A DNA stretch of 64,000 nt from Pedobacter sp. V48 (GTDB taxonomy: Bacteria; Bacteroidota; Bacteroidia; Sphingobacteriales; Sphingobacteriaceae), in contig NZ_AWRU01000002.1 in assembly GCF_000523515.1 (NCBI RefSeq), forward strand, positions 200,022-264,021, given 5' to 3'. Below, in pieces: positions 55,593-63,155 of this stretch. Position numbers and translations under genes: made by a program. The first letter of the stretch is position 1, and each line of letters begins with the position of its first letter. Under the pieces are notes generated by a model. The model worked only from the letters and a program-made list of their open reading frames with translations, was not told where the DNA came from and ran no database searches.

Positions 55593-57044
55593 TTAAGGTA
55601 AGAACAAATCGTGCATGGTGACCTGATTCTGGACCAGGCCAATAGAATAAACATTGTTTTTAACGCCATAGGTTGTGACCATGGCTAGAAACAATGCTTT
55701 TCTAGTCTTGCTCTGCTGACGAAATATATCAAGTTTGTACTGTAGTTCAGCAGCATAAGCTTTATCTATGACAAACTCCGTGTTTGAGAACTTTATTTCA
55801 CATATGCTGACGACATTATCTTGCCTGTCCAGCAACAGGTCGACCTGAGCACCATTTCCGGTTTTTGGGGCATGTCGCCAGGCTGAAGTTTCTGTAAATA
55901 CTCCGGAAATGCCCAGGGCCTGCTTAATATTATCTGAATGTTTCAGACAGATTCCTTCAAAGGCATAGCCACTCCAACTCCTCCATGAAGATGTCGATGA
56001 TTTTTTTAGCCAGGTACCTGCCCCGGTGGCCCGGGAATGTTCGATAAATTTGAGGTAGAAAAGGCTGTATTGGTCACTGAGTTTATAGATACTCTGATTG
56101 GCATTTTTTTGGAAAGGCAGCTGGGGGGTAATAAAGCCAGACTCTACAAGTTCCTCGAGTAACAGCGTGGTAGTCCCTCCACTTTGTAGGTTACATGTGG
56201 TAATGATCTCGTTTCTTGTCAATCCCGATGGCTTGTCCGCGAGTGCTTTGACTACAGAAATGTGCCTGTCTGCGTTTTCGAACAGAGAACGGTAAAGGTT
56301 TGCGAATTCTGTTGAAAGGAGACCGTCCTTAGTGAAGCAAAGCCTGTCAATGGCCTGGGTAGCACTTTCTCCTTTTTTGAGTTCTTTTAGATAATGTGGC
56401 ACACCGCCCATTGCCATAAAGATGGTCAATATCTGATAACGGTCAATATCGATATTTTTGCTTTTCAGGTATTGTTCTGTTTCGTGCAGTGTGAACGGTA
56501 AAAGGCGTATTTTCCGCGTTAACCGGTTGTGCAGACCTCCTTTGCTGTTGACAACTTTTTTGATCATCCAGGTGGCTGCAGATCCACAGATAGCGACGAT
56601 CAGATTAGGCTGTTGTGATGCCCATTGGTTCCAGAAATATTCAAATGCCGAAAGAAAGCCTGATTTATGCGAGCTTAGCCAAGGGAATTCATCAAAGAAA
56701 ATTACCGCTTTTCTTTTTTTAAGTATAGGGGTTGCAAATTCCCTGAGTTGCCAGAAGGCTTCTGTCCAGTTTTTAGGAGCTGCGAGAGTTAATGGAGAAC
56801 CTAGCGCCTCTGCCATGGCCTTGCTGAAATTGAGCAGTTGCTCGGTAGCATTCCCGTCGTGCACCCCCGAAAGTTCAAAGATGAGCTGTTCCCGGAAGAC
56901 CGAGCGTATCAGGAAAGTCTTTCCGACTCTTCGCCTGCCGAAAACTGCTAAAAGTTCCGACGAAGTCGACGCAAGCGCCTCCGATAGTATTTTTTTTTCC
57001 GCTATTCTTCCAATGAGCAATTCCATTTTTCTCCTTTTAATCAT
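55593..57044 (-). CDS. AAA ATPase with C-terminal PD-(D/E)XK-like domain (archaeal-type ATPase, DUF234-like)
   Basis: 483 residues from the ATG at 57044; another ATG at 57026 would give 477. An upstream TTG at 57122 is open, but it reads through the inverted repeats and is not credible. The ATPase part has Walker A VFGRRRVGKTF near 34-44, Walker B AVIFFDEFPW near 113-122, a sensor-like IVAICGSAATW, and a winged-helix region near 270-320 (GLTRNEIITTCNL). The C-terminus VDLLLDRQDNVVSICEIKF near 401-419 fits a PD-(D/E)XK nuclease-fold motif (D402, E416, K418). The cellular job of this family is poorly known; mobile or regulatory roles have been suggested. A hairpin, CTTACCT/AGGTAAG, spans the stop codon (55583-55602). 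Confidence 0.85.
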   Translation of the reverse strand: MIKRRKMELLIGRIAEKKILSEALASTSSELLAVFGRRRVGKTFLIRSVFREQLIFELSGVHDGNATEQLLNFSKAMAEALGSPLTLAAPKNWTEAFWQLREFATPILKKRKAVIFFDEFPWLSSHKSGFLSAFEYFWNQWASQQPNLIVAICGSAATWMIKKVVNSKGGLHNRLTRKIRLLPFTLHETEQYLKSKNIDIDRYQILTIFMAMGGVPHYLKELKKGESATQAIDRLCFTKDGLLSTEFANLYRSLFENADRHISVVKALADKPSGLTRNEIITTCNLQSGGTTTLLLEELVESGFITPQLPFQKNANQSIYKLSDQYSLFYLKFIEHSRATGAGTWLKKSSTSSWRSWSGYAFEGICLKHSDNIKQALGISGVFTETSAWRHAPKTGNGAQVDLLLDRQDNVVSICEIKFSNTEFVIDKAYAAELQYKLDIFRQQSKTRKALFLAMVTTYGVKNNVYSIGLVQNQVTMHDLFLP

Positions 57045-57054
57045 TAAAACAAAT

Positions 57055-57158
57055 TTATCCGCAGCCAAAATCCATTTCAAATATATGGTTTTGGCTGCGG
57101 ATAAAAAAGTATCCGCAGCCAAAACTTATGTAAATCATGTAATTTTGGCTGCGGATAA
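57055..57158. repeat. Two tandem copies of a long inverted repeat upstream of the AAA ATPase gene
   Basis: Four copies of TATCCGCAGCCAAAA alternate in orientation: forward 57055-57070 (with an extra leading T), reverse 57089-57104, forward 57110-57124 and reverse 57143-57158. Both pairs enclose exactly 18 bases, and the two spacers differ in sequence. The two units are 54-55 bases apart in phase. The array ends 10 bases before the preferred ATPase start. It could be an operator, an ATPase/nuclease recognition site, or a strong 5' leader structure. Confidence 0.9.
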
Positions 57159-61878: not shown

Positions 61879-63155
61879 AATTTACTAACCTGGAAAACTA
61901 AAAAGAACCGCAAACCGATGATTATCCGTGGAGCAAGGCAGGTCGGTAAAACATGGTTGATGAAGGCATTTGGTAAACAGGAATATGCACAAACTGCTTA
62001 TGTTAATTTCGAAAGTAACAACTGCTTAAAGGAGTCTTTGAGGAAGATTTTAACATCAACAGAATCATCACCGCATTACAAATAGAAACTGGGATAGTGA
62101 TACAGCCAGAAAACACACTGATTGTATTCGATGAAATACAGGGGGCGCCTGGAGCGCTGACCTCACTGAAATACTTTTATGAAAATGCACCGGAATATCA
62201 TATCATTTCAGCGGGTTCATTACTTGGGGTTGCCTGGAATAGACAAACGTCCTTTCCTGTTGGGAAAGTTGAGTTTTTAGACCTTTATCCGCTGAACTAT
62301 ATAGAGTTTCTTAATGCCAAAGGCCAGCAAGCGCTGGTGGAAGTGTTAAATAGCCAGGACTGGAGCCTGATTAAGGTGTATAAAAATAGATATATCGACC
62401 TGCTGAGGCAGTATTATTATGTGGGCGGCATGCCTGAAGCTGTTCTTGCTTTTACACAAGAGGAAAATTTCACAGAAGTAAGGGCAATACAAAAACGTAT
62501 TTTGGAGGCTTATGAGTAGGATTTTTCCAAACACGCACCTCATGAAATTGTGCCAAGAATCAGAATGCTATGGAATTCAGTTCCTTCTCAATTGGCAAAA
62601 GAGAACAAAAAGTTTATCTACGGATTAATCAAACATGGCTCCCGTGCCAAAGAATATGAACTGGCTATGTCATGGCTGATTGACTGCGGGCTTATCCATA
62701 AAGTATCCCGCGCAAGTAAACCTGCGATCCCCTTGAAAGCTTATGAAGATCAGAGCGCTTTCAAATTATTTCTGCTTGATGTTGGCCTGCTAGCAGCAAT
62801 GGGTGACATTGATGTAAAAACCCTCCTGGAGAGGAATGCAATATTTGAGGAGTTTAAGGGAGCCTTGACCGAGCAATATGTACTCCAGCAATTGAAAACA
62901 ACAAAGGAAATAACTGTTTACTATTGGTCAGCAGAAAATGCAACTGCAGAAATCGATTTTCTTGTACAATATGAGGATAACATTATCCCAATAGAAGTTA
63001 AAGCCGAAGAAAATCTCAGGGCCAAAAGCTTACGGAACTATGTAGATAAGTACGATCCAAAACTTGCCATACGAACCTCTATGTCCGATTTCAGGCGGGA
63101 GGCCTGGCTGAGCAATCTTCCTTTATATGCGATCAGCCAATTAACATCACTATAG
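61879..63155 (+). pseudogene. Broken AAA ATPase of the DUF4143 type
   Basis: Pieces of one gene of about 420 codons are read in two frames. In the first, TWKTKKNRKPMIIRGARQ followed by VGKTWLMKAFG gives the Walker A site (from 61891). Near 62031, a base seems lost in a G run (AAGGAG), and reading continues in another frame as VFEEDFNINRIITALQIETG and then VIQPENTLIVFDEIQ (Walker B) to an in-frame TAG at 62517-62519. The same frame resumes with DFSKHAPHEIVPRIRMLWNS and runs to 63155. The last part contains AEIDFLVQYEDNIIPIEVKAEE, the DUF4143 PD-(D/E)XK-like motif. The first codons are missing, as a TAA precedes the residual start. Three defects make function unlikely. A sequencing error could explain at most one. 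Confidence 0.85.

Follow-up and report, generated by a model that had tools for sequence, protein, structure and literature searches.

In the 64,000-nucleotide stretch of Pedobacter sp. V48 DNA that we analyzed (the window), positions 55593 to 57026 of the minus strand hold a gene for an ATPase of 477 amino acids plus stop (P0001), identified from its open reading frame, Pfam, PADLOC and a structure model. An earlier note made from the sequence had proposed an AAA ATPase with winged-helix and PD-(D/E)XK-like parts, and Pfam, PADLOC and the AlphaFold model all agree with that description: an ATPase_2/AAA_14 domain (the two Pfam matches of P0001) is followed by a winged helix and then by a PD-(D/E)XK-like C terminus. 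The P-loop GRRRVGKT (residues 30 to 37; 56916 to 56939, minus strand) is invariant in an alignment of 71 relatives, V34 excepted (90% or more). The AlphaFold model, built with 71 sequences, reached a pLDDT of 93.4 and a pTM of 0.90. Model and covariation place the winged helix at residues 252 to 318 (56073 to 56273, minus strand), with helices at 252 to 264, 271 to 278 and 284 to 295, the last of which is the recognition helix, strands at 299 to 302 and 313 to 316, and a wing at about 303 to 312. Alignment and model place the PD-(D/E)XK-like part at residues 378 to 451 (55674 to 55895, minus strand), where D396, E410 and K412 are invariant among the 71 relatives, a pattern that we take to be the PD-(D/E)XK motif. 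In Foldseek, the best fold match of the model was 2qen (E 8.5e-13, TM 0.48 over the query), followed by NLR resistosomes, ORC/Cdc6, RuvB and TnsC.

The PADLOC model PDC-S27 covers P0001 at full length (residues 1 to 475, E 1.3e-202) and also matches 71/71 of the relatives in the alignment, and P0001 is its sole match in the genome. No NCBIfam model matched P0001 at E 0.001. Elsewhere in the window, positions 61900 to 63155 resemble an ATPase of the AAA_14/DUF4143 type in decay, with P-loop-like text near 61920 and two open reading frames (62097 to 62519 and 62550 to 63155) in place of one; by eye, no repeats lie ahead of it.

Upstream of the P0001 gene, four exact copies of a 15-nt sequence (arms) alternate in orientation between positions 57056 and 57157. 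From the gene-distal end, these are arm 1 (57143 to 57157, minus strand, its minus-strand text being TATCCGCAGCCAAAA), a distal 18-nt spacer (57125 to 57142), arm 2 (57110 to 57124, plus strand), a 6-nt gap that separates the two arm pairs (57104 to 57109), arm 3 (57089 to 57103, minus strand), a gene-proximal 18-nt spacer (57071 to 57088) and arm 4, nearest the gene (57056 to 57070, plus strand); the spacers and the gap have no strand. Read outward from the 18-nt spacer, the arm is TTTTGGCTGCGGATA. The repeat unit is 54 nt, the two 18-nt spacers are unlike in sequence, and the arm centers are 33 and 21 bp apart. The earlier note was therefore right about four alternating copies enclosing 18 differing bases. 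It had put the array about 10 bases from the ATPase start, but the ATPase starts at 57026, so that the nearest arm lies 29 nt from the ATG. Its remark that the repeats create a false longer reading frame applies to a 509-residue open reading frame (55593 to 57122) that begins at a TTG inside the array: this is a false extension, because 17 close homologues (clade A, below) align from residue 1 at the ATG.

The array is a single site in this genome. All four occurrences of the exact arm in the 6,459,990-base genome are in the array, the three one-mismatch arms outside it are each single and unpaired, and a second arm pair with 18-nt spacing and up to three mismatches is absent elsewhere in the 6.46 Mb. 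A dispersed generic repeat was rejected, since exact arms and the 18-nt pair occur at one site; scattered copies with no link to the ATPase, which the earlier note had suggested looking for, were not seen. Among the 43 open reading frames of at least 200 amino acids in the window, a repeated 13-mer was found in the upstream 200 nt of four, the ATPase gene included, at least three copies of a 13-mer upstream of one, and a 12-nt stem upstream of two.

Does the array accompany the gene in other genomes? Of 399 family genomes, 24 had arm pairs of the window type (22 of them from the genus), against 2/399 for the reversed pair pattern used as a control. It had been asked whether such pairs always precede ATPases of this kind. 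They do so in 15 of the 24 genomes, where the pair lies beside a P0001-like gene, but six genomes (G010, G019, G030, G232, G246 and G288) have a pair with no adjoining P0001-like gene, and three (G092, G162 and G397) have pairs spaced 34 to 35 nt, perhaps due to chance, with no P0001 match in the 3-kb loci. A PDC-S27 homologue at E ≤ 1e-60 was found in 39/145 genomes of the genus. The array stands directly upstream in 17/17 clade-A loci (86 to 100% identity, window included), so the loss of the array before close homologues, the other outcome raised beforehand, was not observed; in detail, in one locus the contig stops within the array (L077), one has degenerate arms (L083), and in one the gene is broken (L086). 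Thirteen further loci of the genus, at 57 to 74% identity, have arrays directly upstream with the same spacing and, by eye, other arm sequences; three of them (L095, L097 and L098) fail the strict stem test defined below. In genome G013, contigs C87 and C179 (L033 and L034) both end in the same kind of array and overlap there, so that the array probably broke the assembly. Homologues with internal stop codons, and so recently broken, occur in G226 (C2:105610-106979) and G451 (C38:446468-447898), and a homologue copy in G065 carries a single stop.

More distant homologues came from a scan of one genome per species, which gave 569 relatives; the best 80 of 569 were used, and as these are the relatives nearest to the query, the array frequencies that follow describe them rather than the whole family. 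Of these 80, mostly from Bacteroidota, 77 were used (the named set), since the contigs of L134, L149 and L188 have little or no sequence ahead of the gene. A strict stem (12 nt, at least 11 matches, loop of 3 to 30, within 200 nt before the start) was found upstream of 86/107 loci (30 from the genus and 77 named), including 61/77 of the named set, compared with 1 to 5 of 107 in ten rounds of shuffled upstream regions. In named loci, the same test found stems in 11/74 downstream regions, 0/72 regions 794 to 1000 nt upstream and 1/76 regions inside the gene. The test was failed by 21/107 loci, and in 3/107 (L144, L177 and L179) the array was unreadable. Repeated 13-mers, direct or inverted, were present in 134/153 upstream regions versus 9 shuffled ones, and at least three copies of a 13-mer in 92 of 153 versus 0. 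The array is clear in one Pirellulaceae locus (L175) and weak in another (L187). PDC-S27 relatives at 37 to 42% identity are also found on contigs labeled as viral (L237 to L241), with clear pairs in L239 and L241 and weak ones in L237, L238 and L240.

We determined array geometry in 142 loci, after dropping L266, L278 and L281 as duplicates and L236 and L237 with fewer than 11/15 pair matches. The L-R gap between adjacent arms was 18 nt in 160 cases, 17 in 53 and 19 in 3. The R-L gap was 6 nt in 116 cases, 7 in 19, 5 in 16 and 4 in 12, so that 6 nt accounts for 116/165 adjacent arm pairs with gaps of 3 to 8. The number of arms per locus ranged from 1 to 8, most commonly 4, and the arm logo across 101 loci is WTWTGGCNNNNTATA. 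These data indicate that distant homologues mostly keep the geometry of the array while the sequence of the arm differs.

We then asked about the protein: do its residues vary together with the bases of the arm? Corrected mutual information between residues and the 15 arm positions was calculated for 101/107 loci (Neff 71), with 19 training arms re-registered by hand; L144, L177 and L179 (unreadable), L118 and L119 (the same loci as L075 and L089) and L086 (broken) were dropped. The strongest covariations were residue 282 with arm position 5 (z 12.8), 121 with 14 (9.6), 285 with 8 (9.1), 310 with 3 (9.0), 288 with 8 (7.6) and 282 with 4 (7.4). Five of these six pairs fall on residues 282, 285, 288 and 310, and the sixth on residue 121; lower-ranked pairs (416 with 9, 285 with 9, 107 with 9, 62 with 9 and others) are spread across the protein. 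In the model, the recognition helix begins at or next to residues 282, 285 and 288, and residue 310 belongs to the wing. The training loci gave simple rules: S or T at 282 goes with G5 (74/74), N282 with A5 (9/12) and D or E282 with C5 (10/14); R310 goes with A or G at position 3 (25/27) and K or N310 with T3 (69/72); and R288 goes with C8 (16/17). These pairings make chemical sense, as asparagine pairs with adenine and arginine with the guanine opposite C. P0001 itself has S282, T285, L288 and N310, and its arms have T3, G5 and T8, as the code predicts.

The rules were written down first, and only then was the DNA upstream of the gene analyzed in 46 further loci. Because 19 training arms had been registered by hand, the hold-out arms were registered automatically, without positions 3, 5 and 8. 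Forty-four loci were used, L241 and L257 being dropped because the protein to the first stop is short. Over the whole hold-out, in which the near-identical pairs L230/L231 and L265/L266 are each counted twice, the predicted base was found in 41/43 cases at arm position 5, 40/41 at position 3 and 31/35 at position 8. For proteins with less than 80% identity to any training protein, a set that excludes L236, L278 and L281 (which match a training protein at a rounded 1.00), the figures were 30/32, 29/30 and 21/25, respectively; in these loci, a constant guess of G5 would be correct in 23/32 and one of T3 in 15/30. The failures were L229 and L240 at position 5, L267 at position 3, and L230, L231, L239 and L240 at position 8. 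The second-ranked training pair, residue 121 of the ATPase domain with arm position 14, was not clearly upheld: lysine went with T in 13/14 hold-out cases and arginine in 23/25, while histidine and asparagine had mixed bases. An ATPase-loop contact at this position is thus no more than a possibility, given these mixed bases and the use of position 14 in registering the hold-out arms.

As a control for relatedness, training and hold-out loci were pooled and divided into disjoint nearest pairs by identity outside the winged helix. In pairs with residues of unlike class, the base differed in 37/41 cases for residue 310, 23/27 for 282 and 20/22 for 288, with both members as predicted in 35, 19 and 18, respectively. 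In same-class pairs below 85% identity, the base class differed in 4/68, 7/69 and 10/71, respectively. Covariation and hold-out prediction thus point, from sequence, to recognition of the sites by the product of the adjoining gene. The proposal that the arms are recognized by a protein is well supported, and the ATPase's own winged helix is the probable reader.

The arms might instead be bound by some other DNA-binding protein of the host, for instance DnaA or a general repressor, and the string TTATCC(A/G)CA in clade-A arms resembles a DnaA box. With a host protein in common, however, one site would be expected throughout, and the arm bases follow the ATPase's residues. Arm sequence varies between homologues and even inside one genome, where the arms of co-resident paralogues differ at position 3, 5 or 8 in 16/17 pairs, a difference no greater than in identity-matched pairs. 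A DnaA-box cluster was rejected because arm sequences change widely among homologues and the consensus is not kept, and we regard binding by any such host protein as extremely unlikely. Avoidance of cross-talk between co-resident paralogues was likewise considered and rejected, as identity-matched random pairs differ about as often (P 0.38).

The position of the arms relative to the promoter bears on their function. In flavobacteria, according to the available part of PMC9723704, TAnnTTTG is the sigma-A −7 box. On that consensus, its sequence and its fixed offset, TATATTTG (57078 to 57085, minus strand), within the gene-proximal spacer, is a putative −7 box of the ATPase gene. In 73/139 loci, TAnnTTTG lies no more than 34 nt past the last L arm (shuffles: mean 7.3, maximum 16); in the other 66/139, it was not found within that distance. 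The offsets from the last L arm fall into 25 cases at 4 to 7 nt, 47 at 14 to 16 and one at 13. In the gene-proximal spacer, the box is present in 28/133 loci (shuffles: mean 2.8, maximum 6), compared with 4/84 more distal spacers and 0/133 on the opposite strand. The two offset classes are about one helical turn apart, as if the promoter faced a bound protein. The sites therefore appear to overlap the binder's own promoter, as the fixed −7 offsets in 73/139 loci suggest. Self-regulation, which the earlier note had listed among several possibilities, is now well supported, with arms at fixed offsets around the −7 box and arm bases that track the winged helix.

Could the arms act as nucleic acid structures, either as cruciform DNA or as hairpins in a leader RNA that work by attenuation or are cleaved by the nuclease part? 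The array stretch as RNA folds very stably, much more so than its shuffles (z −10.4), and arms are slightly more alike across the 18-nt spacer than across the 6-nt gap (2.04 versus 2.41 mismatches, p 0.0003), both of which favor such a role. However, within an array, facing arms resemble each other no more than nonfacing ones do (difference −0.01, n = 117, p 0.59), so complementarity does not go beyond sequence identity, and what is conserved seems to be the single arm and not the stem. With the −7 box inside the proximal spacer or past the last L arm, no full arm pair would be transcribed, and the arm bases track winged-helix residues, which a stem would not need. We consider a structural role very unlikely, and the claim that the arms form a structure was not borne out.

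Arms are also found apart from the usual arrangement. Arms of the clade-A type without a P0001 homologue occur at nine places in eight genomes (L103 to L109, L111 and L112). In L107 (G232) and L103 (G288), the array is kept and the gene is absent. The single array of G019 (L109) aligns with both arrays flanking the ATPase gene in G357, and with both flanks of that locus, and looks like a join of the upstream and downstream arrays, as if the gene had been lost between them. In a four-arm frame in which missing arms were scored as mismatches, gene-less arrays had a median of 8 core mismatches, compared with 0 in 16 gene-linked arrays; the array thus seems to be maintained only alongside the gene. 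Arms also lie behind the gene in 10/98 loci, five of which have a full pair of their own type within 400 nt behind the stop (L075, L148, L160, L173 and L175), so that the gene is bracketed by sites.

These observations can be read as the traces of a mobile gene, in which the arrays would be ends or attachment sites, the ATPase-nuclease would move or excise the gene, and the solo arrays would be empty sites. The downstream arms, the alignment of the G019 array with both arrays of G357 and the seven groups into which clade-A loci fall by their 1.3- to 1.5-kb flanks are in line with this reading. Set against it, no arms lie in the 400 nt behind the gene in 88/98 loci, the fixed placement of the arms relative to the −7 box favors expression control, and the gene-less arrays are shorter or decayed, their loss of the gene being accounted for by ordinary recombination or deletion. 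Mobility, another of the possibilities raised at the outset, thus fares poorly, since the flank groups and gene-less arrays that speak for it are explained equally well by gene loss; we think it improbable, although the downstream arms and gene-less arrays leave room for such a role and do not require one. Site-specific cutting was not borne out here. Some short flank pieces lie on one side of the gene in one locus and on the other side in another: the downstream flank of L076 matches the upstream flank of L078 over 200 nt at 89.5%, and L082 and L116 share such pieces with L085, which hints that the surroundings of the locus have been rearranged.

The explanation that we favor is that the array is a private operator through which the ATPase binds and autoregulates its own promoter, which we judge likely; very probably, it is a docking site of this same protein. 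The gene link, the conserved geometry, the predictive residue-base code and the fixed promoter offset support this in sequence statistics. Autoregulation is the function with the best support, given recognition by the gene's own winged helix, at its own promoter and at a site unique in the genome. Physical binding, a repressive rather than activating effect, the assembly of oligomers and any connection with phage defense are inferred. Each 15-nt arm would be a half-site for the winged helix of one ATPase protomer, with residues 282, 285 and 288 reading position 5 (along with 4) and position 8 (along with 9) of the arm, and wing residue 310 reading position 3. Because the arms alternate with center spacings of 33 and 21 bp, several protomers could form a row over the −7 box of their gene and its surroundings, and the length and phasing of the array, together with the NLR/ORC-like fold, suggest that they assemble. 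The bound protein would most likely repress transcription of the ATPase gene, repression being likelier than activation because the arms surround the −7 box. Arm sequence and winged-helix residues covary while geometry stays constant, so that each locus would keep its own lock and key.

How does this arrangement compare with known systems? The available excerpt of PMC12988326 describes PDC-S27 as an ATPase fused to PD-(D/E)-X-K, the same fusion as in P0001 and the 71 relatives that fit the model, and counts 3503 systems in Archaea and 4562 in Bacteria; in that excerpt, PDC-S27 and PDC-S01 are numerous unvalidated defense candidates without a known trigger or target, and there is no mention of an array, an operator or a winged-helix code. 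Among the matches listed, with preprints and most subscription papers outside the scope, we found no published account of such arrays for PDC-S27, DUF234, DUF4143, PF01637 or STAND/AAA_14 proteins. AbiE antitoxins (AbiEi, Rv2827c), as described in the accessible part of PMC7319586, repress their own promoter through inverted repeats, of which Rv2827c has two sets. The likeness lies in a defense-type DNA-binding protein with inverted repeats at its own promoter, but the binder there is a separate antitoxin, whereas P0001 joins ATPase, binder and nuclease-like part, and the window has a long phased array. Archaeal Orc1/Cdc6 and ORC-type ATPases (2qby, 7tji), which are among the Foldseek matches, share the ATPase with C-terminal winged helix and repeated sites in opposite orientations; P0001 differs in its PD-(D/E)XK-like C terminus and in having its sites at its own promoter and not at a known origin. 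With the Pfam match to ATPase_2, the best fold match to 2qen and the extra C-terminal domain, Orc1/Cdc6 is not its closest relative. The solved archaeal Walker-type ATPases 2qen and 2fna, matched by fold (2qen) and profile, have 350 and 357 residues, are without the C-terminal nuclease-like part and are of unknown function according to their entry titles. REP/BIME elements are inverted repeat pairs that adjoin a gene, RAYT, whose product matches them; the window array differs in being one in the genome and not dispersed, and P0001 lacks a REP transposase domain. Plasmid iterons are winged-helix sites upstream of the binder's own, autoregulated Rep gene; here, the array is chromosomal and alternating, with an ATPase-nuclease in place of Rep.

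AAA_14 (PF13173) genes of the genus, intended as a negative control, came out positive. A repeated 13-mer was found in the upstream 200 nt of 24/28, versus 2 in shuffled sequence and 2/28 far upstream, and at least three copies in 15/28 versus 0 shuffled. The geometry of these repeats is unlike that of the P0001 arrays, and some of the upstream stems look like terminators. In AAA_14 loci L198 to L227, direct or inverted repeats lie right before the start, and units of the TAATCCAAAATTATTATG type occur four times in L224.

Against the operator reading, a plain repressor would not need as many as 8 arms or arms behind the stop (10/98 loci). A tentative extension, which we consider possible and rather doubtful, is a one-gene immune system with an inactive nuclease, for which the array would serve as resting platform and as sensor. 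The NLR/ORC-like ATPase would be parked on its private array as an ordered oligomer that keeps the nuclease off and the gene repressed. Protein and promoter would be freed together when a phage replicates, DNA breaks or the array is lost, so that the cell would in effect be watching whether its array is intact. Through the residue-base code, every copy would be confined to a lock of its own, and the same principle may apply to AAA_14-type relatives that have promoter repeats.

On the operator reading, which we prefer, a DNA ligand readable from sequence would be a first handle on the control of a candidate defense family. With a residue-base code that extends to unseen members, binding, repression and release by phage could be assayed at once. 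The relatives form a natural set of many winged-helix/operator pairs with differing specificity, and the arrays suggest how ATPase-nucleases of the PDC-S27 type may be kept quiet.
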